A DNA stretch of 64,000 nucleotides from Sulfurovum sp. UBA12169. Lineage in GTDB: Bacteria; Campylobacterota; Campylobacteria; Campylobacterales; Sulfurovaceae. Location: assembly GCA_002742845.1 (NCBI GenBank), contig DLUH01000001.1:1-64000 (forward strand). Direction: 5' to 3'. Position 1 is the first letter of the stretch. Each line of letters opens with the position of its first letter. This document shows, one piece after another, positions 9,606 to 64,000 of the stretch. A program made the position numbers and the translations under genes. The notes below the pieces were generated by a model that saw only the letters and a list, made by a program, of their open reading frames with translations, did no database searches and was not told where the DNA came from.

Positions 9606-11451
<1,846 letters not shown>

Positions 11452-17909: not shown

Positions 17910-18879
17910 AAGATTATTCAATAACGAAATGAGCCAAGAGGAGGGGCGCCGGTTTCTTGTAGATCTCAGACAAAAGGGAGAAACTTTTGAGGATATCGCG
18001 GCCGGGGCTGCCGTGATGCGCGAACACTCCATCAAGCTTCCGCTTTCAAATGCTTTAAGACAAAAAGCAATTGATGTAGTAGGAACGGGGGGAGACAAGA
18101 TAGGAAGTTTCAATATCTCATCTACCGTGTCACTTTTGCTCGCTTCGCTGGGATGCATGGTTGCCAAGCATGGGAGCAGAAACGTCACAAGCGTTTCAGG
18201 TGCCGCTGATGTGCTTGAGGCACTCGGGATCAACCTTGATCTTTCGGTTGAAAATCAGATGAAAATGCTTGAAGAGACAGGGTTTTGTTTTATTTTTGCG
18301 ATGAATCACCATCCTGCGATGAAACATATTATGCCTATACGAAAATCTATAGACTACCATACTATTTTCAATATTTTAGGGCCATTAAGCAGCCCGGCAG
18401 GGGCAAGAAAATATCTGCTGGGTGTGTTTGATCCCAGTCATGTCAAACGTATTGCCGATGCGCTTTTGGAGCTCGATACGATAAGAGCTCTTGTGGTAAG
18501 CAGCCATGACGGCATGGATGAGATCTCTCTTGCCTGCAGAACTTCGTTTGCCTATTTGGAAGACAACCGCATTTTGGAAGGTGAGATCAATCCTGAAGCC
18601 CTTGGATTCAACTACGCACCCAAAGAAGCGATACTGGGCGGGAATGCGCATGTAAATGCACAAATTACCAGAGATATTTTTTCAGGAAAAGAGCAAGGGG
18701 CCAAAAGAGACATTGTGGTGCTTAATGCGGCTTTTGCTCTTTTTGTGGAAGGAAATGTGCGAGATATACAAGAAGCAATAGTGATGGCAAAAGAGGCGAT
18801 TGACAGCAAAAAAGCACTGGCGCATCTGGACAGGATTGTCAAAATGAGCCGACAATTATCAGATGAAATCAAGCAATAG
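17887..18879 (+). CDS. trpD: Anthranilate phosphoribosyltransferase
   Basis: This 330-aa enzyme joins anthranilate and PRPP in tryptophan synthesis. Motifs include VVGTGGDKIGSFNISS (PRPP-binding GTGGD), AKHGSRNVTSVSGAADVLEALG and the MNHHPAMKHI substrate segment. The start at 17887 is chosen from AAAGGAGAAGAAG immediately upstream. It overlaps the S4 gene. No other trp genes are in the window, so the gene is dispersed here. Confidence 0.92.
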   Translation: MNVRAQFERLFNNEMSQEEGRRFLVDLRQKGETFEDIAAGAAVMREHSIKLPLSNALRQKAIDVVGTGGDKIGSFNISSTVSLLLASLGCMVAKHGSRNVTSVSGAADVLEALGINLDLSVENQMKMLEETGFCFIFAMNHHPAMKHIMPIRKSIDYHTIFNILGPLSSPAGARKYLLGVFDPSHVKRIADALLELDTIRALVVSSHDGMDEISLACRTSFAYLEDNRILEGEINPEALGFNYAPKEAILGGNAHVNAQITRDIFSGKEQGAKRDIVVLNAAFALFVEGNVRDIQEAIVMAKEAIDSKKALAHLDRIVKMSRQLSDEIKQ

Positions 18880-45384: not shown

Positions 45385-46242
45385 ATGGCAAAAAGTTTAT
45401 ATGAAACGCTTGGTGTAAGCGAAGATGCGAATGCTGATGAAATTAAAAAAGCATATAGAAAATTAGCAAGAAAGTATCATCCTGATATCAACAAAGAAGA
45501 GAGTGCTCAAGAGAAGTTTAAAGAAATTAATGCAGCCTATGAAGTACTTAGCGATCCCCAAAAGAAACAGCAGTATGATCAATATGGCGATCAAATGTTT
45601 GGCGGGCAAAATTTTCATGATTTTGCACGCGGACAGAGTGCAGATATAGATTTAGATGAAATATTAAGAAGTATGTTTGGCGGTGCAAGAAGCGGTTTTG
45701 GAGGCGCACAGGGAGGATTTGGCGGTTTTGGAGGATTTGGCGGAATGCCGGATCTGGACGTGCAAGCGCGTATTACTGTGCCATTCATGGTGTCCATTAC
45801 GGGCGGCAAACATAGTGTTTCAGTGGGCGGTCAAAGTTTTGATATCAAGATTCCTGCAGGTATCAAAAGCGGTGAAACCATGCGTGTGCGCGGCAAAGGA
45901 AAACAGTACCAAGGCCAGGCCGGAGATCTTTTATTGAGTGTTGAGGTAGCTCCATCCAAAGAATATGAAAGAAAAGAGAATGATCTTTATAAAACATTTG
46001 ATGTGCCGCTCAAAGAAGCGCTTTTTGGAGGAAAAATACAAATTGAAACACCTCAAAAAGAAGTTTCGCTAAAAGTTCCCCAAAATACTAAAAACGGCCA
46101 AAAATTTAGACTTAAAGGTCAAGGTGTGCCTGATAGAAAAACAGCGATGGTGGGCGATTTGTATCTGGTAGCCCATGTTGTTTTGCCTGATGTTGATACG
46201 CTTGATAAAGAACTAAAAACAATGCTAGAATCCAAACTATAA
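45385..46242 (+). CDS. cbpA: CbpA-type DnaJ co-chaperone
   Basis: This 285-aa class B J-protein has a J domain (residues 4-67, HPD at 32-34), a Gly/Phe-rich linker ([17 protein letters not shown]) and two C-terminal substrate-binding domains. The DnaJ zinc finger is absent. It stimulates DnaK. It is followed at 11 bp by hspR, the arrangement known from Campylobacter and Helicobacter. Confidence 0.93.
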
Positions 46243-46253
46243 AGGAGGAGCGG

Positions 46254-46625
46254 ATGCACAGTTACGATGAACCTGTTTATCTTATCTCAGTGGTTGCCAA
46301 TATGCTGGAAATTCACCCTCAAACGCTTAGGCAGTATGAGAGAGAGGGGCTTGTAGAACCTTCGCGTACAGGAGGACGGATGCGTTTATACTCCCAAAGA
46401 GATATCGATCGCATGAAACTTATTTTACGATTGACACGTCAAATGGGTGTAAACTTGGCGGGAGTGGATATTGTGTTGCAGCTAAAAGAACAGATCGATC
46501 AGATGCAAAAAGAGATAGATCAGCTCCGCAAGGAACTTAACCGTATCAACCGTAATGGTTCGGTTCACTCAAGCAAAGCTTTGGTGACTAAAAGCAGTTA
46601 TGATATTATTATCTTTGAAGACTAA
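46254..46625 (+). CDS. hspR: HspR, MerR-family heat-shock repressor
   Basis: This 123-aa protein has a MerR winged helix (YLISVVANMLEIHPQTLRQYEREGLVEPSR, split at turns; GGRMRLYSQRDIDRMKLI) and a C-terminal coiled coil (LKEQIDQMQKEIDQLRKEL). HspR represses chaperone operons through HAIR boxes. A degenerate HAIR box overlaps the promoter of this operon, so autoregulation is likely. A strong AAAGGAGGAG precedes the ATG. Confidence 0.92.
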   Translation: MHSYDEPVYLISVVANMLEIHPQTLRQYEREGLVEPSRTGGRMRLYSQRDIDRMKLILRLTRQMGVNLAGVDIVLQLKEQIDQMQKEIDQLRKELNRINRNGSVHSSKALVTKSSYDIIIFED

Positions 46626-46673: not shown

Positions 46674-47079
46674 ATTCTGAAACACAGCGGTTGCCGCGTG
46701 AACCCCATTTTACAATGGTGCCTTTTGCATCAGTCTCTAAAAAGAGCTTACAGCTATCTGTTACAATATCTTGATTGTATCCAAACATCCCATAGTAACG
46801 ATATCCATAGTACCCATATCCCATAACAGGCATTGATGGTACACTGCGAATTCTGGAATGCTCGTAGACATAAACTTTATTTTTGTTAGGCAATATAAAC
46901 GTATGGTCAGGATAGCCTGCTTTCTCTATGAAGTGCGAAATATTTTGACCTACCCAGCGGTCATGTTTTTTAACAAAATTTTCATGCGTAGCACACCCTT
47001 GCATCATGGCCATTATTCCGATCAAAACACCTAGCTTCAGGAATGCTTGAAGGTTCCACTGTACCGGTATCTTTTTCAT
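46672..47079 (-). CDS. Small lipoprotein of unknown function
   Basis: This 135-aa protein has a signal and lipobox (MMQGC, Cys at about 29). It has a Tyr/Gly-rich middle (MGYGYYGYRYYGMFGYN) and two further cysteines (DSCKLF, NRCVSE) that could form a disulfide. HISHFIEKAGYPDHTFILPNK-like sequence resembles SmpA/OmlA-type small lipoprotein domains, but the match is weak. AAAGGAG precedes the ATG. Confidence 0.65.
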   Translation of the reverse strand: MKKIPVQWNLQAFLKLGVLIGIMAMMQGCATHENFVKKHDRWVGQNISHFIEKAGYPDHTFILPNKNKVYVYEHSRIRSVPSMPVMGYGYYGYRYYGMFGYNQDIVTDSCKLFLETDAKGTIVKWGSRGNRCVSE

Positions 47080-47314
47080 TTTGACTCCTTTGAAAAATTA
47101 TTTATTATATTATAATCTATTTGTATGAATGATGCATGAAAATGGCCCATTGCTCTTGTATTTTAATTTTTGTGTGCCGATAAATATGCTTCAGCTTATC
47201 TTTATAAACACTTTATTGATTATGTTTTTGCCTATTGCAGAAAAAAGAAACTTAAAGAGTAAAAAAGATAGTATAAACCTATAGCGATAAGTGCACAGAT
47301 TGCCTGGAGAAAAG

Positions 47315-47788
47315 ATGGGTGTAGAAATAGAACGTAAGTTTTTAGTGAAAAATACATGGCCAAGAGAGAATGGTACTTTATATATACAAGGGTATTTGAG
47401 CCGTCAAAAAGAGCGAACGGTAAGAGTAAGAGTGGTGGGCGATAAGGGATATCTGACGATCAAAGGAAAGAATCAAAAAGCATCCAGGCCCGAATACGAA
47501 TATGCCATCCCTGCAGAAGAGGCGAAGGAGATGCTGGAGCAATTATGTGAAAAGCCAATCATTTGCAAATACCGCTATAAGGTTTTATATGAAAATACAG
47601 TGTGGGAAATAGATCAGTTTTTGGGGGAAAATGAAGGATTGATTGTGGCTGAAGTGGAGCTGGAAAGCGAAGATCAAATGATTGATTTACCGCCGTGGAT
47701 AGGTCAAGAAGTAACGGACGACACAAGGTACTATAATGCGAATCTTATCGGCAATCCTTATCAAAAATGGGAAAAAAAGATACAATAA
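47315..47788 (+). CDS. CYTH-domain protein, inorganic triphosphatase-like
   Basis: This 157-aa protein has the CYTH signature ExExK at the N-terminus (VEIERKFLVKN), repeated charged strands (RTVRVRVVGDKGYLTIKG, RPEYEYAIP), the WEIDQFLGENEGLIVAEVEL segment and the DDTRYYN end. The short one-domain form matches the NeuTTM-like tripolyphosphatases. The start at 47315 follows TGGAGAAAAG. Confidence 0.88.
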   Translation: MGVEIERKFLVKNTWPRENGTLYIQGYLSRQKERTVRVRVVGDKGYLTIKGKNQKASRPEYEYAIPAEEAKEMLEQLCEKPIICKYRYKVLYENTVWEIDQFLGENEGLIVAEVELESEDQMIDLPPWIGQEVTDDTRYYNANLIGNPYQKWEKKIQ

Positions 47789-47831
47789 TATTATGGCAAA
47801 TAAAACATTCAGCCATACAAGGGAGAATCTT

Positions 47832-48557
47832 ATGGGTTGCAAAAAAATAGCGGCGTTATTTTTGTTGTTGGGCATCTTTATTACTCAAATGTATGCAGAA
47901 ACCAAACTCTATGATTTGAAGTCCGGCATTATCGAGTATGCCATAAGCGGAGGCGGAAATATCATGGGTGTGCAGAGTGACACACGCGGAAAACGAAGAC
48001 TTGTTTTTGACCAATGGGGTTTGCTTCAGATTCAAAAAGAACAAAGAACCTCTACTGTAATGGGGCAAACAACAAAAACGGATTCTATCACCAAAATTGA
48101 CAACGGCATTGTGTATGCGGTTGATGTCGACAAGAAAGTGATCATCAAGCAGCCCTTTGAAATGTTTGGACAATCAGACAATCAGGATATGCTTAAAATG
48201 GGCAAAGAAATGTTTAAGAAGCTGGGGGGAAAGCAAACAGGTACAGGCAGTATGCTTGGGTACGCGTGTGAAATCTGGGAGCTGATGGGAACAAAAATAT
48301 GGATTCATAAAGGAGTTGCGCTTAAAGTAGAAGCGGAAATGATGGGTATCAAGCATATCGAAGAGGCCGTAGATGTTAAATTTGATGTTGCAATCGATCA
48401 AAATGAATTTGATATACCCGATTTACCGGTCAAAACTTTTGAAGAAATATATGGCAAGGATTTTAAAGAAATGGTATCTGATCATATGCCTACGCAAAAA
48501 GAGCTGGAACAGATGCAAGAGATGATGAAACAGTTTGGCACTATGCCAACCCATTAA
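47832..48557 (+). CDS. Secreted protein of unknown function
   Basis: This about 241-aa protein has a signal peptide (cleavage after QMYA). The mature part is beta-rich (LYDLKSGIIEYAISGGGN, GYACEIWELMGTKIWIHKGVALKVEAE) and ends in an acidic/Met-rich helix (ELEQMQEMMKQFG). DUF4412-like features (a YACEIWE segment) are possible. The start at 47832 is chosen because AAGGGAG lies 6 bp upstream. It overlaps no neighbour. Confidence 0.65.
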   Translation: MGCKKIAALFLLLGIFITQMYAETKLYDLKSGIIEYAISGGGNIMGVQSDTRGKRRLVFDQWGLLQIQKEQRTSTVMGQTTKTDSITKIDNGIVYAVDVDKKVIIKQPFEMFGQSDNQDMLKMGKEMFKKLGGKQTGTGSMLGYACEIWELMGTKIWIHKGVALKVEAEMMGIKHIEEAVDVKFDVAIDQNEFDIPDLPVKTFEEIYGKDFKEMVSDHMPTQKELEQMQEMMKQFGTMPTH

Positions 48558-48603
48558 TTTTTGTTATGAAAAAAAGACAGAAGTTGCAAAGCGTAAGTGT
48601 TAA

Positions 48604-48624
48604 GGCGGCTTTTTAAAATCCGCC
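48604..48624. terminator. Hairpin between convergent genes
   Basis: GGCGG-N11-CCGCC with inner TTTT/AAAA pairing lies between two convergent genes. A further GGCGGATTT copy at 48641-48649 can compete for pairing. Confidence 0.55.
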
Positions 48625-48636
48625 CAAGAAAAAGCA

Positions 48637-49710
48637 TTAGGCGGATTTGATAGTTTGAAGTCTCTTCTTTTGCAGCAGCATACGGTCTTGAAAAAGTTTG
48701 TTTTTGTCCTTGGCGAAAGCTTGCATATCTTCCACTTCGTCCATTTCGTCAACAATTTCAACTCCCAAAAGTGCCTCGATCGCATCTTCCAGCGTAACCA
48801 CACCGGAAGTTTGTCCATAGTTGTCATGCACGACAAACAGGTGGGTCTTCTTCTTAATAAACACATCAATCAGTGCGAATACAGGAACATTTTCAGAGAC
48901 TTTATGAACAGGGAATGCAATAGAATCAAGCAATTTATCATCATGATCTTCAATACTCTCTTCTAGAATGGTTTGGTTAAATACCACTCCGATCACATGA
49001 TCGATAGACTCATCGAAAATAGGAATACGAGAGTGGATATACAGTCGATCCTCATTGAGCGCTTCACCCACTGACATGGTAGAAGGAAGTGCAAAAACAA
49101 CGCTTCTGGGGGTCATGATGTCTTTGGCTTTGACATGTTTTAGTTTTAAAAGGTTTTCAATCAGGTAGCTCTCCTTACTCATAAGTGAGCCTTCTCTTTC
49201 TCCCATAGCTACAACCGCCATAATCTCATCGCGTGAAAAATTGGTATTTTTGTTTTTGCCTCTTGAGATAAAGGTGGTAATAATCGAAGAGAACCACACC
49301 AATGGATAGGTCAGTTTGATCAAGAATGAGATGACATACGCTGAAGGGATAAGCAATGATTTCCAGTAGATTGCCCCGATAGTTTTGGGGATAATCTCAG
49401 AAGCATACAAAATCAGCAATGTCAGAATAAAGGCTATCGCCGCTTGCCATTCTGCACCAAAAAGCACCTGTGCCTGTGCGCCAACCCCGGCAGCACCCAT
49501 CGTGTGGGCAAATGTGTTTAGGATTAAAATAGATGCAATCGGTCTATCAATATTTGATTTTAAACTTTTGAGTTTAGTAATTGCCTTTTCATTCGTTCTC
49601 GGAAGCGTTTCTATATAAGAATTGGTGCTTGATAGTAAAACAGCCTCAAGAACTGAACAGACAAAAGAGATTGCAAGAGCAAAAAAAAGATAGGTAAGTA
49701 AAAGCGTCAT
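48637..49710 (-). CDS. CNNM/CorC-family membrane protein with CBS domains
   Basis: This 357-aa protein has an N-terminal DUF21/CNNM membrane domain (about residues 1-165) and a paired CBS module (about 190-330, DIMTPRSVVFALPSTMSV and HLFVVHDNYGQTSGVVTLEDAIEALLG). Such proteins are linked to Mg2+/Co2+ homeostasis. The third CorC_HlyC domain is missing, so this is the short form. Confidence 0.88.
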   Translation of the reverse strand: MTLLLTYLFFALAISFVCSVLEAVLLSSTNSYIETLPRTNEKAITKLKSLKSNIDRPIASILILNTFAHTMGAAGVGAQAQVLFGAEWQAAIAFILTLLILYASEIIPKTIGAIYWKSLLIPSAYVISFLIKLTYPLVWFSSIITTFISRGKNKNTNFSRDEIMAVVAMGEREGSLMSKESYLIENLLKLKHVKAKDIMTPRSVVFALPSTMSVGEALNEDRLYIHSRIPIFDESIDHVIGVVFNQTILEESIEDHDDKLLDSIAFPVHKVSENVPVFALIDVFIKKKTHLFVVHDNYGQTSGVVTLEDAIEALLGVEIVDEMDEVEDMQAFAKDKNKLFQDRMLLQKKRLQTIKSA

Positions 49711-49844
49711 ATGGCACTTCCACAGTAGGTTTTAAAGGCGAAACACCTGTCGCCCAGATCGGTTGGATTCATTCCAAGGTATCCTTTTGTTTAAATAATA
49801 GCGGTATTATAGCATATGTTTGTTTATCGTAAGAAATTTAATTT

Positions 49845-50702
49845 CTATCGCTCACATTTTTCATATTTTACCAGCGCAACTCTTCCAAGTATGAGAAGTG
49901 TAACACCGATAATCAAATAAAGCGCATTGATCATTTTACTGTAATCATCCAGAACGATTTTAAAAATAACCATGAGGGATTCTATGGAAGCCGCAATGAT
50001 GATGGAGTTGAGAAATTTTGCCAAAAGCGTGCTTCCTGAAGCTTCCTCATGCATACTTCCCTTAAAAAGTATCTCGTGTTCAATAATATGTTTTGCCAGA
50101 TCGTAGATGGCAAGACCTATCGTTATGGAGATAATAGATTGAAAAACGTTATGCAGAAAATCATGAGCAAGCGAACCAACAAAAAGATTCATAAAAACAA
50201 ATCCTCCGTAGAGAATCAAAAAAAGTGAAACCGCACCAAGCAAAACAGCGCCTGTGCCGATAACGAGCTTGTTGATCTTATGAAACAATGAGTTATGCTC
50301 AATCAATTTAAGTTGCTCAAGAAGCCTCAGGAGATCAAAATCGACAACGACAAAAGCATTGATCTGCTTTTTGACAACCGTTACCGTCGGAGAACCGGTA
50401 ATGTGATGCAGGTAAGGGTTGGTTATGTAGATGTCATCGGCGGCAAACTGTATCCCCTTAAAATAAAAAGATTTATCATAGCCGACCCTTGAGGGATCTT
50501 GTTCTTTGCGGCCGTAGTTTGGTGTGATCTGTTTAAAATCCTCGCTTACCGCATAAATAATTTCCGCTGCCTTGTCGACCTCTAAAAACTGAACCAAACT
50601 TTTTTGATCAGTGTGTGAGGGACGAAAAGCTGCCATGGTGCTACGCAGATAAAACTGTACACTGTTTTTGTTCTCGGTGTAGATATTGATGATACGTTTC
50701 AT
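49845..50702 (-). CDS. Membrane protein with possible periplasmic PDC/Cache-like sensor part
   Basis: This 285-aa protein has an N-terminal segment (AAEIIYAVSEDFKQITPNYGR, YITNPYLHHITGSPTVTVVKK) resembling a PDC/Cache ligand-binding fold but without a clear N-terminal membrane anchor. Four hydrophobic helices follow (VIGTGAVLLGAVSLFLILYG, SIISITIGLAIYDLAK, FLNSIIIAASIESLMVIFKIV, ALYLIIGVTLLILGRVAL). No output domain is present. The function is unknown; similar Campylobacterota proteins carry vague glycosylation names that I cannot support. Confidence 0.65.
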   Translation of the reverse strand: MKRIINIYTENKNSVQFYLRSTMAAFRPSHTDQKSLVQFLEVDKAAEIIYAVSEDFKQITPNYGRKEQDPSRVGYDKSFYFKGIQFAADDIYITNPYLHHITGSPTVTVVKKQINAFVVVDFDLLRLLEQLKLIEHNSLFHKINKLVIGTGAVLLGAVSLFLILYGGFVFMNLFVGSLAHDFLHNVFQSIISITIGLAIYDLAKHIIEHEILFKGSMHEEASGSTLLAKFLNSIIIAASIESLMVIFKIVLDDYSKMINALYLIIGVTLLILGRVALVKYEKCER

Positions 50703-50912
50703 TGCTGTTCCTTCTCCGATACTATTTTTTAGTATAGCACTATTTTTTGGATTTAAATAGATAAAATAGGCATTTTTTGGGTTGTGTTTCTCGATTTTCG
50801 CACTATATATTATTTATTGCTTAAAATTGCATTTATTAAAATAAAGATCATGAAAAATTTAGAATATGCAATAGGAAAATAATATATACTTCACTTTTTA
50901 AAGAAGAAGAAA

Positions 50913-51179
50913 ATGTGTCCCAGGGTAATGATCCTGGGTTTTTTCGCGGATCTTGACAGGTGGGCATATGAAAATGGTGTCGAGCTTGATTTTTCAAGGC
51001 CTGGAAAACCAACGCATAATGCTATAATAAAATCTTTCAATCGCTCTTTTGGGGATGAATGTTTGAATGTGCATTGGTTTTATCTAAGATTGAGTGAAGA
51101 CCATTTGAAGGAAAATATATTAATCAAGATAAAGTATATTGCGCAAAATATATTAGTGATAATCATAATAGGACAATAA
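50913..51179 (+). pseudogene. IS3-family (IS407-like) transposase OrfB fragment
   Basis: The segment LDRWAYENGVELDFSRPGKP, then TFNAxIxSFNRSFGDECLNVHWF-like sequence, is the C-terminal end of an IS3-group integrase domain. It is preceded by unrelated sequence and decays after VHWFYLRLSED. A downstream frame (NRTINYSF) looks like the lost RPHSSL end. There is no OrfA, no DDE start and no visible terminal repeats, so it is a dead remnant. Confidence 0.85.
50919..50944 (+). terminator. Rho-independent terminator-like hairpin
   Basis: CCCAGG-N8-CCTGGG followed by TTTTTT lies immediately before the transposase remnant. It has no intact gene just upstream on the plus strand and may be part of the decayed element. 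Confidence 0.6.
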
Positions 51180-51293
51180 ACTACTCATTCAGGAAGATAT
51201 TTTGATTTTCAATATCTTTGTGGATTAATTGTTTTTTCCTCGCCCCCAAGCTCCAGCCTGCGGGATGCATATGCGTGAAAATAAAATAATAAC

Positions 51294-51416
51294 ATGAACA
51301 CAAGACTTTATGGCCCGACTATCGGACGGTTCGTCAGCGCAGACCCCGTGATCCAAGATCCTTACAATACCCAAAGCTGCAGCCGCTACTCCTACGTAAG
51401 GAAACAAACCCGTTAA
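51294..51416 (+). pseudogene. RHS-repeat core-domain fragment
   Basis: A 40-codon frame encodes RLYGPTIGRFVSADPVIQDP and YNTQSCSRYSYVR, the diagnostic RHS-associated core (ARYYDPxxGRFxxxDP). Nothing of the large upstream shell domain or a toxin tail is present. It is a remnant of a polymorphic toxin or wall-associated protein, adjacent to the IS3 remnant. Confidence 0.8.
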
Positions 51417-51767
51417 AATATACAGATCCTTGAGGGCATAGCTGGAGCGCTACAATAAAGAACAGAAAAAGTCAGCATAGAAAAGTCTGGAAATTGGAGG
51501 AGTTTATATCCTGTAGTTATTCTGCAGGAAAAGTCACCTTTTGGAGTATGTCGGTTTCGGAAAAGCTTATAATAATACTTAGGTTTTAAAATCTTTATTT
51601 GTGTTATAATAAAATATTCAGTTTACTTTTAAAAAGGAACTGATTTAAGAATAATCACAATTAGGTGCTACATTTGTTGTTTATAAAGTGACAACGGTGT
51701 GCTTTACATTGGGCGAAAGTTAATCTTCGGATTTACGATTCGTCAAATAGCAAAAAAGGAAAATAAA
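51417..51767. other. Gene-poor decayed region
   Basis: No convincing open frame. TTATAATA-type -10 elements occur near 51562-51569 and 51605-51612 and could drive the following small membrane-protein genes. The rest looks like unrecognisable remnants of the neighbouring dead elements. Confidence 0.4.
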
Positions 51768-51917
51768 ATGCTTGAAACTATTGCAATTATCTTAATTGTC
51801 CTCTGGCTTCTAGGGCTCGTCAGTTCATATACTATGGGCGGTTTCATTCATGTTCTTCTAATCATCGCAATCGTGGTGATTTTAATTCGTGTCATTCAAC
51901 GTCGGCGTATCTTATAA
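51768..51917 (+). CDS. lmo0937-type small membrane protein
   Basis: This 49-aa protein is almost entirely two helices (TIAIILIVLWLLGLVSSYTMGG, then IHVLLIIAIVVILIRVIQ). It matches the lmo0937/DUF5670 family of tiny membrane proteins, often stress-linked. The internal ATG at 51768 is chosen from AAAAAGGAAAATAAA directly upstream. Confidence 0.8.
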   Translation: MLETIAIILIVLWLLGLVSSYTMGGFIHVLLIIAIVVILIRVIQRRRIL

Positions 51918-52025
51918 AGAGTCAAAAGCGGTTCCATATAAAGTACAGTTTGTGTTTTTTGGCCAGTTACTTTCCCTCTTCTGACAGATTTCAGCTTGAG
52001 GGTATTCAAATAAAAAGGAAATAAA

Positions 52026-52247
52026 ATGAACGCAATTAAAATTGTAGCTGTTGTATTGATCGTAGGCGGCGTATTGGGTTTAACGTATGGCGGTTTCAGC
52101 TACACTAAGAATACAGAGCAAGTCAAGTTGGGACCAATCGAGATGTCAGTAAAAGAGAAGCAGACCTTTAATGTTCCGGTTTGGGCTGGTGTGGGGGCGA
52201 TAGCATTAGGCGGTATACTCTTGCTTTTTGGAAGTAAGCGATTTTAG
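52026..52247 (+). CDS. DUF3185-like small membrane protein
   Basis: This 73-aa protein has two helices flanking a polar loop: IVAVVLIVGGVLGLTYGG, then TEQVKLGPIEMSVKEKQTF, then AGVGAIALGGILLLFGS. The layout is that of small envelope-stress proteins often next to the lmo0937 family. AAAAGGAAATAAA precedes the ATG. Its function is unknown. Confidence 0.75.
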   Translation: MNAIKIVAVVLIVGGVLGLTYGGFSYTKNTEQVKLGPIEMSVKEKQTFNVPVWAGVGAIALGGILLLFGSKRF

Positions 52248-52554
52248 TCATTGTCCATTTAGGCAGAATAACCGGCTAACTGTGTTCCTATTGATATTGC
52301 CATGATTAAGTAAAAAAAAGAAAAAGTGAACCTGGAGGCTGTCTATAAAATAGGGAAGCTTGCAGGGCAATAAGATTGATAAATTTTTCTTCATTAAAAG
52401 TTGGAGATAAAATAGCGGGCAAGATACGCTAAGGCTGCAACAAGAGCTGTAGAAAATTAAGCGGAAAATGCCGATATTCGGATAAAAGTAGAAATGTAGT
52501 GTTTGTTTTTTAGCTTTTGATTGTTTATTTGCGATGTAGTCAATGTTTGATAAG
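52248..52554. other. Non-coding stretch before the prophage junction
   Basis: I see no gene, tRNA or strong hairpin here. It is the last host sequence before the attachment site. Confidence 0.4.
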
Positions 52555-52601
52555 TGGTGGGTCCTCAGGGACTTGAACCCTGGACCACTCGGTTATGAGC
52601 C
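52555..52601 (-). other. attL: 3' half of tRNA with CAT anticodon
   Basis: On the minus strand the segment reads the anticodon loop CTCATAA, stem strand CCGAG, variable loop TGGTC, T arm CAGGG-TTCAAGT-CCCTG, acceptor strand AGGACCC, discriminator A and an encoded CCA. The 5' anticodon strand is TTTGG instead of the expected CTCGG, and no D arm or 5' acceptor follows. It is therefore a tRNA-Met (or Ile2) fragment left by site-specific integration, with the foreign DNA to the right. Confidence 0.85.
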
Positions 52602-52703: not shown

Positions 52704-52727
52704 AAGTGAACACCCAAGTGAACACCC
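52704..52727 (+). repeat. Tandem 12-bp repeat upstream of the integrase
   Basis: Two direct copies of AAGTGAACACCC lie between the tRNA fragment and the integrase gene. Position and size suggest arm-type integrase binding sites, which is inference. Confidence 0.5.
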
Positions 52728-52752: not shown

Positions 52753-53832
52753 ATGGCCATTGATACAAGTGAATACCCAAATAAGGTTAAGGCTAACCTG
52801 TGGGCGAATAAAACATATACTACATTTTTTTACAACTTTATGCAAGACTCAAAGCGTTACCGTGGGCTTATAGACCTATCTGACAGATCAGCGTGGGGTA
52901 AGCGTGACCGGGTGGCGTATGCAGAAGCGGAACTCAGCAAGATAAAGATAGACAGAAAAGCCGGAGTGCTGCAAGATATACGATTAGATGACTGGGTAGA
53001 AAAGGTCTATGACCGCATGGAAGATACAAAGTGGGCCAAAACACTCAAAAGCCACTACAAGAGGTATGTAAGTCAGGATATAGGTAAAAAGACCGTACAA
53101 GAGCTGCTGCAAAACGATATCAAAGAAACGATCAAAAACCAAAGGGATGCTGGCATATCTCCACGGACGATCAAGCAGACCATAGAGGTGCTTAGGCCAG
53201 TGTTTGCAGAAGCCATAGCAAACAGGATGATACTAACCAGCCCTATGGACGGAGTTAAAGTAAAGCTGCCAAAGACAAAAAAGATAGTCACAAACGCTAC
53301 TGAAGAGCTGGTAGAGATATATGAGGCGATAAGTAAAGAGTTTGAGGATGAGCCTTTTTATAGATCGCTATATCTTTTTGCCGTGCATGGTAGGCGTAAG
53401 GGAGAGATACTGAAACTTAAATGGAAAAATATAGACTTTGAACACAGCTACTATATCATAGAAGATACCAAGAACAGTGAGACCCAAAAACTGTATTTGC
53501 CATGCGACATAAAAGAGCTGCTGCTACAGTTCAAGATGGATACCGAATACGTCTACACCTCACGCGCTACAGGTACGAGACTTATCGACATACGAAAAAC
53601 AACGTCTCGGATATCAAAGAGGCTTGGTCGTAACTTCACGCTGCACTACCTGCGTAACGTGATCGTAAGCGCTATGGCAGACCATGGTGTAGCAGCGACA
53701 CACATGAGCGGTGCACTGGGGCACAAAAGCGCGACCACTATAGACAGATACCTAACACTTAACTACCTAAGAGGTAGCCAGCTGGCAAGCAATGTTATAG
53801 GTGAGGTGACCAAGAAGAAAAAGGCAGATTAG
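52753..53832 (+). CDS. int: Prophage tyrosine recombinase (integrase)
   Basis: This 359-aa protein has an N-terminal arm/SAM-like DNA-binding region (about 50-165) and a catalytic domain with Arg214 (VHGRRKGE), a candidate Lys240, H298-x-x-R301 (LHYLRN), His324 (LGHKS) and Tyr333 (DRYLTL). The location 150 bp from the tRNA attachment half-site makes it the probable integrase of the element. The start follows ACTGGAAAAACTCTA. Confidence 0.92.
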   Translation: MAIDTSEYPNKVKANLWANKTYTTFFYNFMQDSKRYRGLIDLSDRSAWGKRDRVAYAEAELSKIKIDRKAGVLQDIRLDDWVEKVYDRMEDTKWAKTLKSHYKRYVSQDIGKKTVQELLQNDIKETIKNQRDAGISPRTIKQTIEVLRPVFAEAIANRMILTSPMDGVKVKLPKTKKIVTNATEELVEIYEAISKEFEDEPFYRSLYLFAVHGRRKGEILKLKWKNIDFEHSYYIIEDTKNSETQKLYLPCDIKELLLQFKMDTEYVYTSRATGTRLIDIRKTTSRISKRLGRNFTLHYLRNVIVSAMADHGVAATHMSGALGHKSATTIDRYLTLNYLRGSQLASNVIGEVTKKKKAD

Positions 53833-56733: not shown

Positions 56734-57471
56734 TTAACCTTTTAGTATCCTGCCTACAACCCTGCCTACGATATGCAGGTACTCTTGGCTGTCTTTGTCA
56801 AGCTCTTCATCGTATCCGTTTGCACCGTGGTAGCTTGGGTTTTCTGAGATGATGCGGATGTTGCCATTTAGCATGAATTTGAGATTTTTTACCTGCTCGC
56901 CTACTGCTGTGGCTATGATGTACTTGCCGTCTGCTGCGGCTCTCTCACCGTCTTTTAGCGGTATGAACAGTACAATATCGGAGTCATCCACATAGGGTTT
57001 CATACTGTCGCCAACTACCTGTATGGCTTTGATGTCTTTCGCGGGGTAGCGCGTGTCAAGGGTGTGGATGTCGACGTAGATATGTTCCAAATGGGCCGTG
57101 CCGACAAGCCCAGCCGACCCTGCGCCTACATACCCGTCTATGAGCGGTACGGATATCAGAGAAGATGGCAATGCGCCGCTGAGATAGTCTTCATACTCAT
57201 ACAGGTTTTCTTCAAGCTCTTTTTTTACAAGCCTTTTTTTTTCTTTATGCGTTACAGGTAGGAGATCGATTATAGAAATATTTAGAATATCTGCTAGCTC
57301 TGATATTTTCAAAATGTCATTAGGAAACCTGCGACCATTAGCCCAGTGTATAACAGTAGACTTACTCACCCCTAATTTTTCTGCTATTTTCTCTCCAGTA
57401 AAATCACGTTTATCCATATAAAAACGCAATTTAGCTGAAAAAAGGTTAGGCAAATCTTTTACATTTTTCAA
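56734..57471 (-). CDS. Prophage repressor, XRE HTH plus S24 (LexA-like) peptidase domain
   Basis: This 245-aa protein has an N-terminal HTH (about residues 26-48, GEKIAEKLGVSKSTVIHW) and a C-terminal S24 domain with Ser156 (GDSMKPYVDDSD) and Lys195 (VKNLKF). A candidate Ala-Gly cleavage site is in GYVGAGSAG (about 117-118). It would maintain lysogeny and self-cleave on SOS induction. The TTG start at 57471 is chosen after an eight-G Shine-Dalgarno. The longer ATG frame would start inside the operator. Confidence 0.88.
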   Translation of the reverse strand: MKNVKDLPNLFSAKLRFYMDKRDFTGEKIAEKLGVSKSTVIHWANGRRFPNDILKISELADILNISIIDLLPVTHKEKKRLVKKELEENLYEYEDYLSGALPSSLISVPLIDGYVGAGSAGLVGTAHLEHIYVDIHTLDTRYPAKDIKAIQVVGDSMKPYVDDSDIVLFIPLKDGERAAADGKYIIATAVGEQVKNLKFMLNGNIRIISENPSYHGANGYDEELDKDSQEYLHIVGRVVGRILKG

Positions 57472-57498
57472 AACACCCCCCCCTATTTGATTAGTTTT

Positions 57499-57567
57499 AT
57501 TATATAAAATTAAAAAATACAAAATGTACCTTTATTAATCTTTAATTAAGAGTACAAAATGTATTAT
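57499..57567. promoter_or_regulatory. Right operator pair (OR-like) with divergent promoters
   Basis: TACAAAATGTAC (57518-57529) and TACAAAATGTAT (57553-57564) are 35 bp apart, as at the left operator. The left site covers the -35 zone of the repressor promoter (TATAAT on the minus strand, 57504-57499). The right site overlaps the -10 (TATTAT, 57562-57567) of the rightward promoter. The rightward start point would be close to 57573, so the Cro-like mRNA may be leaderless. Confidence 0.75.
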
Positions 57568-57829: not shown

Positions 57830-58330
57830 ATGATGAACGATATCTTTGAAAGCGGCGAACTGCCGACTATGGAAGTGTACGAGGCGGCACACAGCGTGGT
57901 GTTTGACTATATGGAGAAAAAACGATGCAAGATAGACGTAGTGGCAGCCGATCTTGGTACAACAAAAAACGTGCTGTACCGGCAGCTAAACCCGGATGAT
58001 ACGCTTATGCCGCTTAGCATTGACAGGTGCATAGCCATCACCAGGCTCACCGGGGATATGAGGATACTTGAAGCCTTTGCCAAAGTATTTGATATGGTTG
58101 CCGTGAAGCGAAAAACAGCGGAGGCAGACATCAAAGACATAAACTTGCTTGTAGACCGGGCAAACATGGAAAACAGCGATGTTTTCAGGGTGATAAAAAA
58201 CGCGATAGAAGACGGCGCCATAGATGGAAAAGAGCGCGAAAAAATACTTAAGGAGATAGACGAAGCGCAGGTAGCAAACGCGAAACTCAAAGATACCGTG
58301 CTTCATATAGCAGTGCGCGATCTTGATTAG
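57830..58330 (+). CDS. CII/CP76-like phage regulatory protein
   Basis: This 166-aa protein begins with an HTH (SVVFDYMEKKRCKIDVVAAD, LGTTKNVLYRQLNPDD) and a helical C-terminal half. The pattern with RQLNPDD and MPLSIDRCIAITRLTGD matches the phage regulatory protein CII (CP76, PF06892) family. AAAGGGGAAAAG precedes tandem ATGs. Its stop codon lies inside a long hairpin. Confidence 0.75.
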   Translation: MMNDIFESGELPTMEVYEAAHSVVFDYMEKKRCKIDVVAADLGTTKNVLYRQLNPDDTLMPLSIDRCIAITRLTGDMRILEAFAKVFDMVAVKRKTAEADIKDINLLVDRANMENSDVFRVIKNAIEDGAIDGKEREKILKEIDEAQVANAKLKDTVLHIAVRDLD

Positions 58331-58542
58331 TCTCATTGAAGCCAGCTTTGGCTGGTTTTGATGAGACTAAGGGGTCTGGAACTGGAAAAACTAGCCCCCG
58401 AAGCCTCTACCACATCATATCTAATACCTAGACATGAGCCAGTTATTATATCCAGTTCTGGCTGGCTCAAACTTGAAGCATGGCCCATCTGTTGTGCTTA
58501 AGTCTAATCGGTTCATGCCTAGGTGGAACTGGAGAAACAAAC
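58327..58542 (+). ncRNA. Strongly structured region before the replication gene
   Basis: Hairpin 1 (58327-58370) has a 10-bp stem TTAGTCTCAT/ATGAGACTAA, a TG/TG internal loop, an 8-bp stem and a TTTG loop. Hairpin 2 pairs TGAGCCAG (58435-58442) with CTGGCTCA (58462-58469). Hairpin 3 pairs ACTTGAAGCA with TGCTTAAGT (58471-58503). CCTAGACATGA (58427-58437) can pair with TCATGCCTAGG (58513-58523) around these, with a 3-nt conflict. TGGAACTGGARAAAC occurs at about 58377 and 58525. There is no T tract. It could be a regulatory RNA, leader or origin. Confidence 0.5.
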
Positions 58543-59295
58543 ATGACACAACTATTTAAGCAGCTTAACCATAAGCCCATAGCTTACTACCCGGTTTACA
58601 AACAAATTACAAACTCTACTACTGGCGGAATACTACTATCTCAGCTTATGTACTGGTTTAGTAAATCTGACAAGTTTTATAAAACAGACGAAGAGATAAA
58701 AACAGAAACGCTACTGACAAAAAAAGAGCTTGAAAACGCTAAAAAACTCATCAAAAACTTACCTTTTATCACTGTAACAAGAGAGGGCATACCTGCTCAA
58801 ACATACTATGAGATAGACTGGGAAAAGTGGGTAACTTGTATCACCGAAACGGGTAACACAGTTTCCACCATTGGTGGAAACTGTACGCCACAAAACGTGG
58901 AAACTAATATAGTATTATCTTTGACAGAGAATACTACAGAGAATACTACAGAGAATAAAAAAACTACAAAAAAAGATGAAGACTTCAAAAACATCGAGCT
59001 TTACAAAGTACTCATCGATACAGAAAAAGCACTGTATTTGGAGTACATAGAGCTTAGAAATTCATTGAAACTAAAGACATCTTACCAGTCACATAAAAGG
59101 CTACTTGGGAAATACCATGACTTTGGACGTAATCCGTCAGTGATAGAAAATGCGATCAATGCAAACTGGAAAGATTTTTACTCACCAAAGCAAGGTTTTA
59201 TAAACACAAAAGAGCCTCAGGTAGGCAGTATAGGATGGAGGATGCAGCAGCAAGCAGCAGAAGATAAAAACATCATAGATGTGGAGGCTGAATAA
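58543..59295 (+). CDS. Phage replication protein (helicase-loader/DnaD-like)
   Basis: This about 250-aa protein begins MTQLFKQLNHKPIAYYPVYKQ with a winged-helix-like N-terminus (SLLSQLMYWF-type segment: GGILLSQLMYWFSKSDKFYKT). A low-complexity linker (LTENTTENTTENKKTTKK) separates it from a C-terminal helical domain. The layout is common for phage replication initiators of the lambda O/DnaT-like class. The start at 58543 follows AACTGGAG, 8 bp upstream. The place downstream of CII-like fits. Confidence 0.65.
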   Translation: MTQLFKQLNHKPIAYYPVYKQITNSTTGGILLSQLMYWFSKSDKFYKTDEEIKTETLLTKKELENAKKLIKNLPFITVTREGIPAQTYYEIDWEKWVTCITETGNTVSTIGGNCTPQNVETNIVLSLTENTTENTTENKKTTKKDEDFKNIELYKVLIDTEKALYLEYIELRNSLKLKTSYQSHKRLLGKYHDFGRNPSVIENAINANWKDFYSPKQGFINTKEPQVGSIGWRMQQQAAEDKNIIDVEAE

Positions 59296-59853: not shown

Positions 59854-60120
59854 ATGCGTACAGTAGTAGATATCCACATAGAAGAAAACGACTATGAAAA
59901 AAGATACTTTATTTCAACGCCAAGCGGCATAGACGGTATACCGCTGCACCTATCTGCCGATATGTCACTTACAAGGGTAAAAACAAAGCGTGCATATGTA
60001 CGCGATCTTGCCAATGCGCAAAAAATAGCCGGGCTTATTTTTGCAGGAGAAATTAGAGAGGGAATAGCGTATTCGAATGTTAAAAAATCTGTTCAAGAGG
60101 TAGCTCATGAAAACAAGTAA
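59854..60120 (+). CDS. Small phage protein of unknown function
   Basis: This 88-aa protein (VVDIHIEENDYEKRYFISTP, then RVKTKRAYVRDLANAQKIAGLIF) starts 1 bp after the preceding stop. The last 14 bases overlap the second recombinase gene. No family is recognised. Confidence 0.55.
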   Translation: MRTVVDIHIEENDYEKRYFISTPSGIDGIPLHLSADMSLTRVKTKRAYVRDLANAQKIAGLIFAGEIREGIAYSNVKKSVQEVAHENK

Positions 60121-61201
60121 CCGTTATGGCTCTAAGGTGATGTTAAACAAACTTATAGACGGTGATGTAAGCTACTTCATCGTCTATAAGACAGCAGGGG
60201 ATAGCCAAAACACTTGGCTTAAGATCGGCAAGAGATCGGAGGGAATAACAGAGGCAAAGTGCATAGAGATACGCAACCAGAAGCTTAGCGAACAAAGACA
60301 CGGCTTAGACCTTAGCCAAAAGGATATGAAGCGGCTTACTTTCGGGAAACTTGCAGAGTCGTATTTTAGAACAAACGCTGTACATGTTAAGAGTATCAAG
60401 CAGTACCAGCAGACATACAAAAAACACATAGAGCCGCATTTCGGAGATATAGCTGTAGCAAACCTTAATGATGAAGATATCACGGACCTACAGACTATCA
60501 AGATCGCTCATGGGCTTAAAAAGTCTACGATAAACGGCATCATAAAGCTGATAGTAAGGCTGGTGAACTTTGGCATAAAACGCGGCATCATAAAGTACAG
60601 CCCGTTTAGAAACATAAAGCACTTCAAAGTGAGTAACACACGCCTTAGATACCTAAGCCATGAAGAGATAGAACACCTCAGAGACATGGTTAATGATGAT
60701 CTTGTATTGAAACTCTTTACCGCTGTGGCACTTGGTACAGGTGCTAGAGCTGAGGGAGTGCTGGCAATACAAAAGAAGCACATAAACCAGTCACACAAAA
60801 GTATCACGATCAACGACTTTAAACGTGGTAATACCTATGTGGCTTACCTTGATGATGATAGCTTCACGATGCTAGTAGATCACATGAAAAACATGAAGCT
60901 AAACCACTATGTGGTATCTGTAAACGGTAAAAAGACAAAGTACCAAACATTGTACAAAAAGCTTAAGCCATTCCTTGAAGTATTTAACGATGATCTGACA
61001 GGAAACGATAAGCAACACCGGGTGGTGATACATACGCTTAGGCATACTTTTGCCTCACACTTGGCTATCTCTGGTGTTAGCATACAGGAGATACAAAAGC
61101 TGCTTAATCACAAAGATATAAACCAAACACTCAAATACGCGAAATTAGCCCCGGACAGTGGGAGAGATCACGTAAAAAAACTTTATAAAGGGAAACGATG
61201 A
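60107..61201 (+). CDS. Second tyrosine recombinase of the prophage
   Basis: This 364-aa protein is a full tyrosine recombinase. An N-terminal AP2-like arm-binding part (about 12-60, VSYFIVYKTAGDSQNTWLKIG) is followed by a SAM-like core-binding domain (about 78-170) and a catalytic domain with Arg214 (GARAEGVLAI), Lys239 (NDFKRG), H309-x-x-R312 (HTLRHT), His335 (LLNHKD) and Tyr344 (TLKYAKL). It is embedded between early genes with overlaps at both ends, far from the attachment site, so a role other than integration is likely. Confidence 0.9.
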   Translation: MKTSNRYGSKVMLNKLIDGDVSYFIVYKTAGDSQNTWLKIGKRSEGITEAKCIEIRNQKLSEQRHGLDLSQKDMKRLTFGKLAESYFRTNAVHVKSIKQYQQTYKKHIEPHFGDIAVANLNDEDITDLQTIKIAHGLKKSTINGIIKLIVRLVNFGIKRGIIKYSPFRNIKHFKVSNTRLRYLSHEEIEHLRDMVNDDLVLKLFTAVALGTGARAEGVLAIQKKHINQSHKSITINDFKRGNTYVAYLDDDSFTMLVDHMKNMKLNHYVVSVNGKKTKYQTLYKKLKPFLEVFNDDLTGNDKQHRVVIHTLRHTFASHLAISGVSIQEIQKLLNHKDINQTLKYAKLAPDSGRDHVKKLYKGKR

Positions 61202-61729: not shown

Positions 61730-62071
61730 ATGGTTAGAAATAGATTAGAAAAATTTAGATTATTTTCGCTAGCGAAAGAGTGCGCTACAAACCGTGCTGC
61801 AGTTGTTTCAAATAGATTTAGTCAAGACGTTAATAAATATAACTCTATGGATTATATAAAAATAAAAGCAATATGTGGAAAAGCCCTTAAAAAGGTACTT
61901 CCTGGAGGTTATGCAGTTAAGGGTACTAGCGAGTGCGAAAATGTCCTAGATATACAAATTTTAAAGTTAGTTTACTTTTTTAGTTTAGCAATTATCCATC
62001 AAAGCACGATCATGCCGAGGCTGGAGCCAAAAAGTAAACTAGTTCAAAACTTAGTTTACTTTGGGATTTAA
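61730..62071 (+). CDS. Doubtful 113-aa frame upstream of terminase
   Basis: An open frame starts 5 bp after the gpZ-like gene with no clear Shine-Dalgarno. The second half (KLVYFFSLAIIHQS, QNLVYFG) is produced by the GTTTACTT repeats, so part of it may be a DNA site rather than protein. The first half (RLEKFRLFSLAKECATNRAAVV) also has a TTTCGCT-AGCGAAA palindrome (61764-61777). It may be non-coding packaging-site DNA. Confidence 0.35.
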   Translation: MVRNRLEKFRLFSLAKECATNRAAVVSNRFSQDVNKYNSMDYIKIKAICGKALKKVLPGGYAVKGTSECENVLDIQILKLVYFFSLAIIHQSTIMPRLEPKSKLVQNLVYFGI

Positions 62072-62081
62072 AGGTTTACTT
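61967..62081. repeat. GTTTACTT repeats upstream of terminase, candidate packaging site
   Basis: AGTTTACTT occurs at 61969-61977 and 62053-62061. The inverse AAGTAAACT is at 62032-62040, and GGTTTACTT at 62073-62081, directly before the terminase ATG. TAGTTTACTTTTT (61968-61980) and its inverse (62029-62041) form a perfect 13-bp inverted repeat. The position before the small terminase gene parallels the cosB R-sites of lambda. Confidence 0.55.
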
Positions 62082-62690
62082 ATGGGGAAAAAGTACATTT
62101 CGCAAGTAGAGCTGGCAGCAGCAAACGGAGTCAGCAAGCAGCACATAACGAATTTAAAAAAACGCGGGATTTTTGATGCTTGCATGGACGGCAAAAAAAT
62201 TTTACGCGACTGTGCGCTACAGGCATACATTTCTAGCAAGGATCCTGCAAGGGATTCGCAACGTGAAGCAAACCAAAAAGACAAAGACAAAGAGATCGAT
62301 GAGACAACTGTAGAAATAGAGACAGGCACAGATACCGAGATCAAAGATAGTTATCTTTATAACGGAGATAACATCAGAGAGCTAAAGTTACTACTTAGAG
62401 GAAAATTAACTAGCGGTCAAAAAGTACAGATCATCAACACATTTTGGGCAGGCAAGCTAAACCAACAAAAGTACATGGAGGGTGAAAAGCGGCTCATGCC
62501 TAAAGAACAGATAATCAAAGATAACCAGAGGATACTGAAAGCTTTTAGAGACAAGGCACTTGCATTACCTACAAAAATGTCATTAGACCTTTTAGGGCTT
62601 AAAGACAAAAAAGAAGCAGCTGCAATAATAGAGAGCTATATCTATGAACTACTGGAGGAACTTAGCCAACTGGAGGACGAAAATCAATGA
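62082..62690 (+). CDS. Terminase small subunit (Nu1-like)
   Basis: This 202-aa protein has an N-terminal HTH (ISQVELAAANGVSKQHITNL, KKRGIFDACMDGKK, ILRDCALQAYISSK) as in Nu1/TerS. A charged linker and a helical C-terminal part follow. It recognises the packaging site. The start at 62082 follows AAAGG by 9 bp. The stop overlaps the large subunit (ATGA). Confidence 0.8.
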   Translation: MGKKYISQVELAAANGVSKQHITNLKKRGIFDACMDGKKILRDCALQAYISSKDPARDSQREANQKDKDKEIDETTVEIETGTDTEIKDSYLYNGDNIRELKLLLRGKLTSGQKVQIINTFWAGKLNQQKYMEGEKRLMPKEQIIKDNQRILKAFRDKALALPTKMSLDLLGLKDKKEAAAIIESYIYELLEELSQLEDENQ

Positions 62691-64000
62691 TAGTAGCTGA
62701 TTGTGTAAGAGTTGTTAAACCACCCAAGAAATTAACTGTATCAGAGTGGGCTGATGAGTACAGGCAACTGAGCAGTGAAGCATCATCGGAAAGCGGAAAG
62801 TGGCGCACCAGCAGGGCTGAGTACCAGCGCGGTATTATGAATGCAGTCAGCGATCCTACTGTCCACACTATAGTTTTTATGAGTTCTGCACAGGTTGGGA
62901 AAACAGAGCTGCTATTAAACATCATAGGATATTTTGTAGATCAAGACCCTAGCCCCATGCTATTGCTACAGCCAACCCTAGATATGGCACAGGCGTTCAG
63001 TAAGGATAGGTTAGCACCAATGACGCGCGACACAAAAGTACTGACCAATAAGATCAAGGACAGTAAGGCAAAAGATAGCGGCAACACTATTTTGCATAAG
63101 ACATTTTCAGGCGGCCATATCACTATGGCTGGCGCAAACTCTCCGGCATCTCTGGCTTCAAGACCTGTAAGAGTAGTCATGTGTGATGAGGTAGACAGAT
63201 ATCCTGCAAGCGCCGGCGCTGAGGGTGATCCAGTAAATCTTGCCATAAAACGTAGTACTACATTTTGGAACAAAAAAACAATATTGGTATCTACACCGAC
63301 GGTTAAAGATATAAGCAGAATAGAGGTAGCATACGAGGCAAGCGACCAGAGAAAGTATTACGTACCTTGCCAAGAGTGCAACGAGGGCCAAGTACTGGTA
63401 TGGAAAAATGTAGTATTTAACGATCAGCCTGATACAGCTAAGTACTACTGTGAAAAATGCGGTGTCGGCATGGATGATACTGCACTATGGAACGCTATCA
63501 AAAAAGGGGAGTGGAGGGCAACAAAACCATTTAACGGTGTAGCCGGGTTTTGGCTTAATGAGATTTACAGCCCATGGGTAACACTTAAGGAAATGGCAAA
63601 AAATTTTATGGAAGCAAAAAAAAGCCAGTATACCCTCAAGACTTTTATTAACACCTCCCTAGGCGAAACATGGATAGAAGACCAAGGCAAACAGATAGAA
63701 GATGACAACCTGCTTAAAAACTGTGAAGACTACATGGCAATACCAAATGAAGCAGTGATACTTACCTGCGGTATAGACGTACAAGATGACAGGCTGGAGG
63801 GGGAAATCAAAGCATGGGGCAAAGGCCATGAGAGCTGGGGTATCAAGCCATTCAGGATAGAGGGTATACCGTCACAAAGCCAGATATGGAACGACTTGGA
63901 TAATATCATAGATGCTATATACATACGTGAAGATGGGGTAGAACTAAGAGTAAGCTGTACCTGCATAGACTCAGGAGGTCACTTCACAGACCAGGTATAC
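62687..64000 (+). CDS. Terminase large subunit, GpA family (3' end outside window)
   Basis: The frame is open to the window end (about 438 codons seen). It has ATPase motifs SSAQVGKTE (Walker A variant, about 65-73) and VVMCDEVDRYP (Walker B, about 160-170), a zinc-ribbon-like pair CQEC/CEKCG (about 228-264) and the nuclease start TCGIDVQDDRLEGE (about 361-374). These match the phage terminase GpA family (PF05876). It powers DNA packaging with the upstream small subunit. The start overlaps that gene by 4 bp. Confidence 0.92.
   Translation, partial: MIVADCVRVVKPPKKLTVSEWADEYRQLSSEASSESGKWRTSRAEYQRGIMNAVSDPTVHTIVFMSSAQVGKTELLLNIIGYFVDQDPSPMLLLQPTLDMAQAFSKDRLAPMTRDTKVLTNKIKDSKAKDSGNTILHKTFSGGHITMAGANSPASLASRPVRVVMCDEVDRYPASAGAEGDPVNLAIKRSTTFWNKKTILVSTPTVKDISRIEVAYEASDQRKYYVPCQECNEGQVLVWKNVVFNDQPDTAKYYCEKCGVGMDDTALWNAIKKGEWRATKPFNGVAGFWLNEIYSPWVTLKEMAKNFMEAKKSQYTLKTFINTSLGETWIEDQGKQIEDDNLLKNCEDYMAIPNEAVILTCGIDVQDDRLEGEIKAWGKGHESWGIKPFRIEGIPSQSQIWNDLDNIIDAIYIREDGVELRVSCTCIDSGGHFTDQVY

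Follow-up and report, generated by a model that had tools for sequence, protein, structure and literature searches.

Williams is said to have described, in 2002, islands with tyrosine integrases at the anticodon subsite of tRNA genes. In the available text of a survey of published tRNA islands, 2083 of 3919 use the anticodon subsite (PMC4383910). A different use of such targets, tRNA-dependent lysogeny, is set out in the available sections of another study: the core shared by phage and host is about 10 bp, the host tRNA is not rebuilt, and the phage carries a complete tRNA of the same isotype, which is required for stable lysogens (PMC10865867). According to the same sections, this mode has been shown by experiment in mycobacteriophages and is mentioned for Lactobacillus, and the evolutionary relation of the two modes is called unclear (PMC10865867). 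Extracts of two further papers describe a similar case in Sinorhizobium (PMC11476347) and the absence of tRNA-dependent lysogeny from phiLM21-like prophages (PMC12429752). Among the matches listed in our search of the literature on this mode, no title concerned Campylobacterota.

Our analysis concerns a stretch of 64,000 nucleotides from Sulfurovum sp. UBA12169 (the window; coordinates marked C1 are those of the contig and reach beyond it). Positions 52555-52601 (minus strand) are the displaced 3' part of a host CAT tRNA, from the anticodon loop to CCA; the first-pass annotation had recognized the piece from its sequence, and the intact counterpart called by ARAGORN confirms it. The position given there for a 47-bp fragment holds, while the exact repeat is 5 bp longer at its low end, making a 52-bp att core with copies at 52550-52601 (minus strand) and, outside the window, at C1 85148-85199, 32,598 bp apart from start to start. 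Read on the minus strand, the repeat starts with GG, where the 5' anticodon strand ends, and continues with the loop CTCATAA, the remainder of the tRNA through CCA, and 5 bp more. ARAGORN called no tRNA within the window or within C1 50000-69999, and a single one in C1 70000-89999, with a CAT anticodon, at C1 85154-85230 on the minus strand. The first-pass annotation had expected a rightward extension to reveal such a gene at the right prophage end, intact, on the minus strand and identical to the fragment in its 3' half. The remnant also gave, as that annotation had foreseen, the length of the prophage: the repeats stand 32,598 bp apart and enclose phage genes. In a whole-genome search with the 161 bases around the fragment only the two repeat sites match (E <= 0.001). 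A chance repeat is rejected, and the fragment is real.

The genes between the repeats, for integrase, repressor, terminase, portal, capsid and tail, are those of a contractile-tailed prophage. Its terminal gene encodes a tyrosine integrase of 359 aa (52753-53832, plus strand; Pfam Phage_integrase 3e-14, PHROG integrase 9e-33) and starts 151 bp inside the left repeat; the catalytic-type residues, which we take to be the motif of the tyrosine recombinases, are invariant across 15 relatives. A CI-like repressor with an S24 peptidase domain (56734-57522, minus strand) is followed on the plus strand by a CII-like regulator (Phage_CP76; 57830-58330), an O-like replication initiation protein (58480-59295), and the small (62061-62690) and large (62687-64000, continuing to C1 64480 past the window) terminase subunits, and the prophage also encodes baseplate, sheath, tape measure and endolysin proteins and a reverse-transcriptase gene. 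To the right of the intact tRNA lies an ftsW/rodA-type gene. The layout is that of an Islander island: the intact tRNA and the 3' fragment have the same orientation, with the fragment on the downstream side, the tyrosine integrase gene lies between them, and the 32,598 bp fall within the 2-200 kb range. A second, full-length tyrosine recombinase is encoded between the replication and terminase genes (60107-61201, plus strand), and its completeness, together with a 29% relative that lies near a fragment of the same tRNA in another Sulfurovum genome (G013), would be in keeping with this enzyme, rather than the terminal integrase, having integrated the prophage; however, a relative of the terminal integrase adjoins the core in every locus with enough upstream sequence, and we reject the interior recombinase as the integrator, a role that it is very unlikely to have played.

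Near the left end, at 52705-52726 (plus strand), stands the tandem motif AGTGAACACC-CA-AGTGAACACC; the same 22-mer recurs at C1 85062-85083, near the right end, and a further unit with one mismatch is found inside the integrase gene, at 52768-52777. With up to three mismatches tolerated, C1 1-89,999 has no site for the 22-mer AGTGAACACCCAAGTGAACACC other than those at 52705 and 85062. A scan of viral_contigs with it returned 7 stretches from 5 contigs; every stretch has a CAT-tRNA core close by, and ARAGORN called a complete tRNA in four of the seven; other relatives carry different tandems in the same place. Motifs at the two ends of one element match each other better than motifs of different elements (means of 23.6 and 15.6; 0 of 20,000 permutations reached this), with the reservations that an element's own partner motif came out on top in just 5 of 13 cases and that shared ancestry also feeds the total. 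From their position, their pairing and the precedent of lambda, we infer that the tandem 22-mers are probably paired integrase arm sites.

Close to the right end of the prophage, to the right of the window, one frame of 795 aa (C1 82324-84711; L004 12325-14712) joins a tail-type variable protein to the reverse transcriptase of a diversity-generating retroelement, without an avd gene and with just one template-like repeat. In a viral contig of the same phage the variable protein has a gene to itself and avd is present; the contig is identical to C1 over 13,281 bp elsewhere, and another 7,241 bp has 19 mismatches, all at A in the repeat. The usual retroelement gene order is seen in six related contigs, and the joined frame is either a real deletion or an assembly collapse. 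The same genome has a second joined variable-protein/reverse-transcriptase frame, of 874 aa, at C5 746730-749354 (L109 8731-11355), with no avd found in the stretch read, and a third reverse-transcriptase match (39%) at C1 402485-403636, with one TAG within the matched frame.

A search with the right end covered 60 genomes, its own included, and 55 match, some only to another tRNA; a second match in one of them, G058, was left out. Among the 36 other genomes of the genus, four of which have no match, a second copy of the 3' half was confirmed in three (G020, G029 and G013), and an integrase adjoins that copy in each; the fragment standing without a prophage in relatives, which the first-pass annotation had named as evidence against its proposal, was not seen. 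In G020 the order is dnaJ-hspR, about 170 bp, the tRNA fragment, an integrase (56% identical), about 18 kb and the intact tRNA; G029 has the fragment, an integrase (48%), about 28 kb and the intact tRNA, so that related integrases stand in the same arrangement at the same tRNA in both; in G013 the distance to the fragment is about 30 kb, and the integrase is a different one. These genomes also bear on whether the right junction could be an assembly misjoin at the 52-bp repeat. That junction is known from the assembly alone, and the same assembly may have collapsed the nearby retroelement repeat, but fragment, integrase, element and tRNA follow one another in the same order in G020 and G029, and the matching tandem motif is present at the right end; a misjoin is exceedingly improbable.

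No second copy of the 3' half was found in G034, G060, G008, G028, G005 or G083, all of which have the tRNA. In G034 and G060, the two closest relatives, the tRNA and one flanking base match the left junction of the window without a difference over 53 bp, and because of this identity the left flank can be assigned to the host and the right flank of the core to the phage; the joined empty site is not seen in these two because their contigs end near it. In the other four, dnaJ-hspR is followed after 0.14-2.1 kb by the tRNA on one contig. The window has the host dnaJ and MerR-family (hspR-like) genes in its left flank (45385-46625, plus strand), in synteny with relatives, and about 5.5 kb (47004-52549) between hspR and the tRNA fragment, against those 0.14-2.1 kb, and these four therefore offer no exact empty counterpart of the left flank; none was found among the relatives compared, the contigs of the close ones breaking there. 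Of the comparison with empty sites that had been suggested at the outset, the single tRNA copy in close relatives was borne out, while the joined left flank is absent from the G034 and G060 contigs. Window positions 51294-51403 match a stretch beside the tRNA in G060 that resembles an Rhs-type repeat.

We are all but certain that a temperate contractile-tailed phage integrated into a CAT tRNA, probably by way of the anticodon loop, with the tRNA rebuilt on the right and its 3' half displaced to the left. Both junctions and their orientation, the prophage genes, the single copy in close relatives and the tandem motifs at both ends are evident in the sequences as assembled. The tyrosine integrase would have recombined attP with the host gene in the region of its anticodon loop; a 3' half of the tRNA would have come with attP and made the gene whole again on the right, the host's original 3' half being moved 32.6 kb, to the left end. 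The first-pass annotation, right about the tRNA and the site, had put the cut at the anticodon arm; it is better placed in the 7-bp anticodon loop (52593-52599, minus strand; TTATGAG on the plus strand), within which strand exchange probably took place. The letters shared by 26 junctions centre on GTTATGAG, and a relative in its inserted state shares only GTTATGAGCC. The rebuilt tRNA presumably works, and the phage may well still be able to excise; an exact scan of viral_contigs for the core of the excised attP of this phage gave 0 matches. The locus is clean, with exact ends, and attB, attP and the prophage length can therefore be stated and tested.

Three CAT tRNAs were found among the loci of 30 of the 34 tRNA matches in the genome. 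One of them, L127, has a C1/A72 mismatch, from which we take it to be an initiator tRNA, and it is not the target. A look-up of the target's isotype against the E. coli annotation put tRNA-Lys and tRNA-Ile in the top rows; the target may be either elongator Met or Ile2, with a slight preference for Ile2. A scan with a CAT-tRNA pattern gave 3 matches.

The integrase belongs to a family that shares this site. The genome collection gave ten integrase loci, of which L105 (27%) was dropped and nine, at 42-63%, were kept; L106-L108 (24-29%) were left out. The nine come from records under the names Sulfurovum, Sulfurimonas, Sulfurospirillum, Sulfuricurvum, Sulfurovaceae, Campylobacterales or Epsilonproteobacteria. 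In each of them a 3' fragment of a CAT tRNA precedes the integrase, with 134-166 bp from the end of its loop to the gene; these fragments score 64-88, the highest scores of shuffled sequence being 22-30. A viral scan added 19 integrase loci; three (L174, L177 and L180) lack the stretch upstream of the integrase, and in all 16 that have it the core lies 128-166 bp before the gene. Taken together, all 25 relative loci in which the upstream sequence is long enough have the core TTATGAG 128-166 bp before the integrase; one of them is not independent (L098 is the G020 prophage contig again), and the distances in L101 and L181 are approximate, because their integrase start is that of a partial match. 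Five contigs underlie L156-L162, and all five recur in the viral scan; L176 and L178 have identical integrases. The 26 junctions, counting that of the window, have one contiguous run of letters in common, GTTATGAG, made up of the loop and one flanking base. Relatives in phage and plasmid records (67 and 17) are all below 60%, and at 22-29% among the matches listed. In the Sulfuricurvum record L103 the integrase is at 10001 and a CAT tRNA at 18054-18129, about 8 kb apart, possibly a small satellite-like element.

These relatives keep the tRNA in two ways. In L168, L170, L173, L176 and L181 the core with the tRNA 3' half adjoins the integrase and a motif stands on the other side, which reads as the layout of an uninserted attP; the two motifs of L181 are little alike. 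Complete CAT tRNAs are present in L156, L165, L166 and L169, and in the last three the gene lies beside one tandem, with a short core before the other. Contig 3300028534_000061 (L156, L161) is inserted, with the host 3' half at one junction and the host 5' half at the other (just 16 and 22 host bases remain at the contig ends), and since the junctions share exactly GTTATGAGCC, 10 bp, the host gene is not rebuilt. A second contig from the same metagenome (L158, L160) is of the rebuilding kind, and its tRNA is identical over those 16 + 22 host bases. Some relatives of the integrase sit in phages that appear to disrupt the tRNA gene of the host and to supply a whole one in its place. At the window's locus, the same mode would mean that the host tRNA is broken and that the right-hand tRNA is a phage-borne replacement. 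The closest integrase in our tree (L163, 61%) does come from a prophage of the replacing kind; yet the shared core is 52 bp and not about 10 bp as in L156/L161, the right-hand tRNA, rebuilt from host and phage parts, is the sole one in C1 50000-89999, and its 5' half runs into host sequence common to G034 and G060. The junction sequences contradict tRNA-dependent lysogeny here, and we give it next to no weight.

The integrase tree holds 27 sequences, 9 rebuilding, 4 replacing and 14 unlabelled. The labels require 3 changes on it, of which firmly supported branches demand at least 2. The partner of the window's integrase is L163, of the replacing kind, with support of 94/91, just under the tool's mark for firm support. 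The modes do not cluster in the tree beyond shuffles (160 and 170 of 500 were as low), which counts against the reading that they switched. We nevertheless think it fairly likely that this integrase clade, campylobacterotal in the named records, acts exclusively on the anticodon loop of a single CAT tRNA, possibly the tRNA-Ile2 that reads AUA, and that its phages have changed mode more than once, between rebuilding the tRNA and breaking it while carrying a complete replacement beside attP.

Set against described systems, the prophage in the window is of the ordinary, rebuilding kind, and the site itself is ordinary. As in Islander islands, the rebuilt tRNA stands at one end and the displaced 3' fragment at the other, the integrase lies inside, and the crossover would fall in the loop; from the available text there is no difference in principle, and the tRNA, the host group and the integrase clade are what is specific (PMC4383910). 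Among Campylobacter zot prophages in tRNA-Met, as far as the available portion of that paper goes, some att repeats also start at CTCATAA, the loop of a CAT tRNA; their continuation, CTCATAACCCG, is like that of the initiator-type L127, and the elements measure about 10 kb (PMC5025632). The part worth keeping is the family-level comparison of integrases: related enzymes use the same 7-bp loop, in some phages with the tRNA 3' half and in others with the whole tRNA. The relatives L165, L166, L169 and L156/L163 resemble the actinobacteriophages in combining a short core with a complete phage tRNA, and the available sections of that study likewise pair similar integrases of both modes (Boilgate/Fionnbharth, 78% identical, and Omega/Gaia) and report putative paired arm sites (PMC10865867). 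In contrast to those phages, the window's prophage itself rebuilds its tRNA, and the relatives are campylobacterotal or unnamed viral records at a CAT tRNA, known here only through their sequences (PMC10865867, in the sections available). If our reading of the clade is true, tRNA-dependent lysogeny reaches further than the groups that the papers cited here name, and such sets of integrases make the relation between the two modes testable in another host group.
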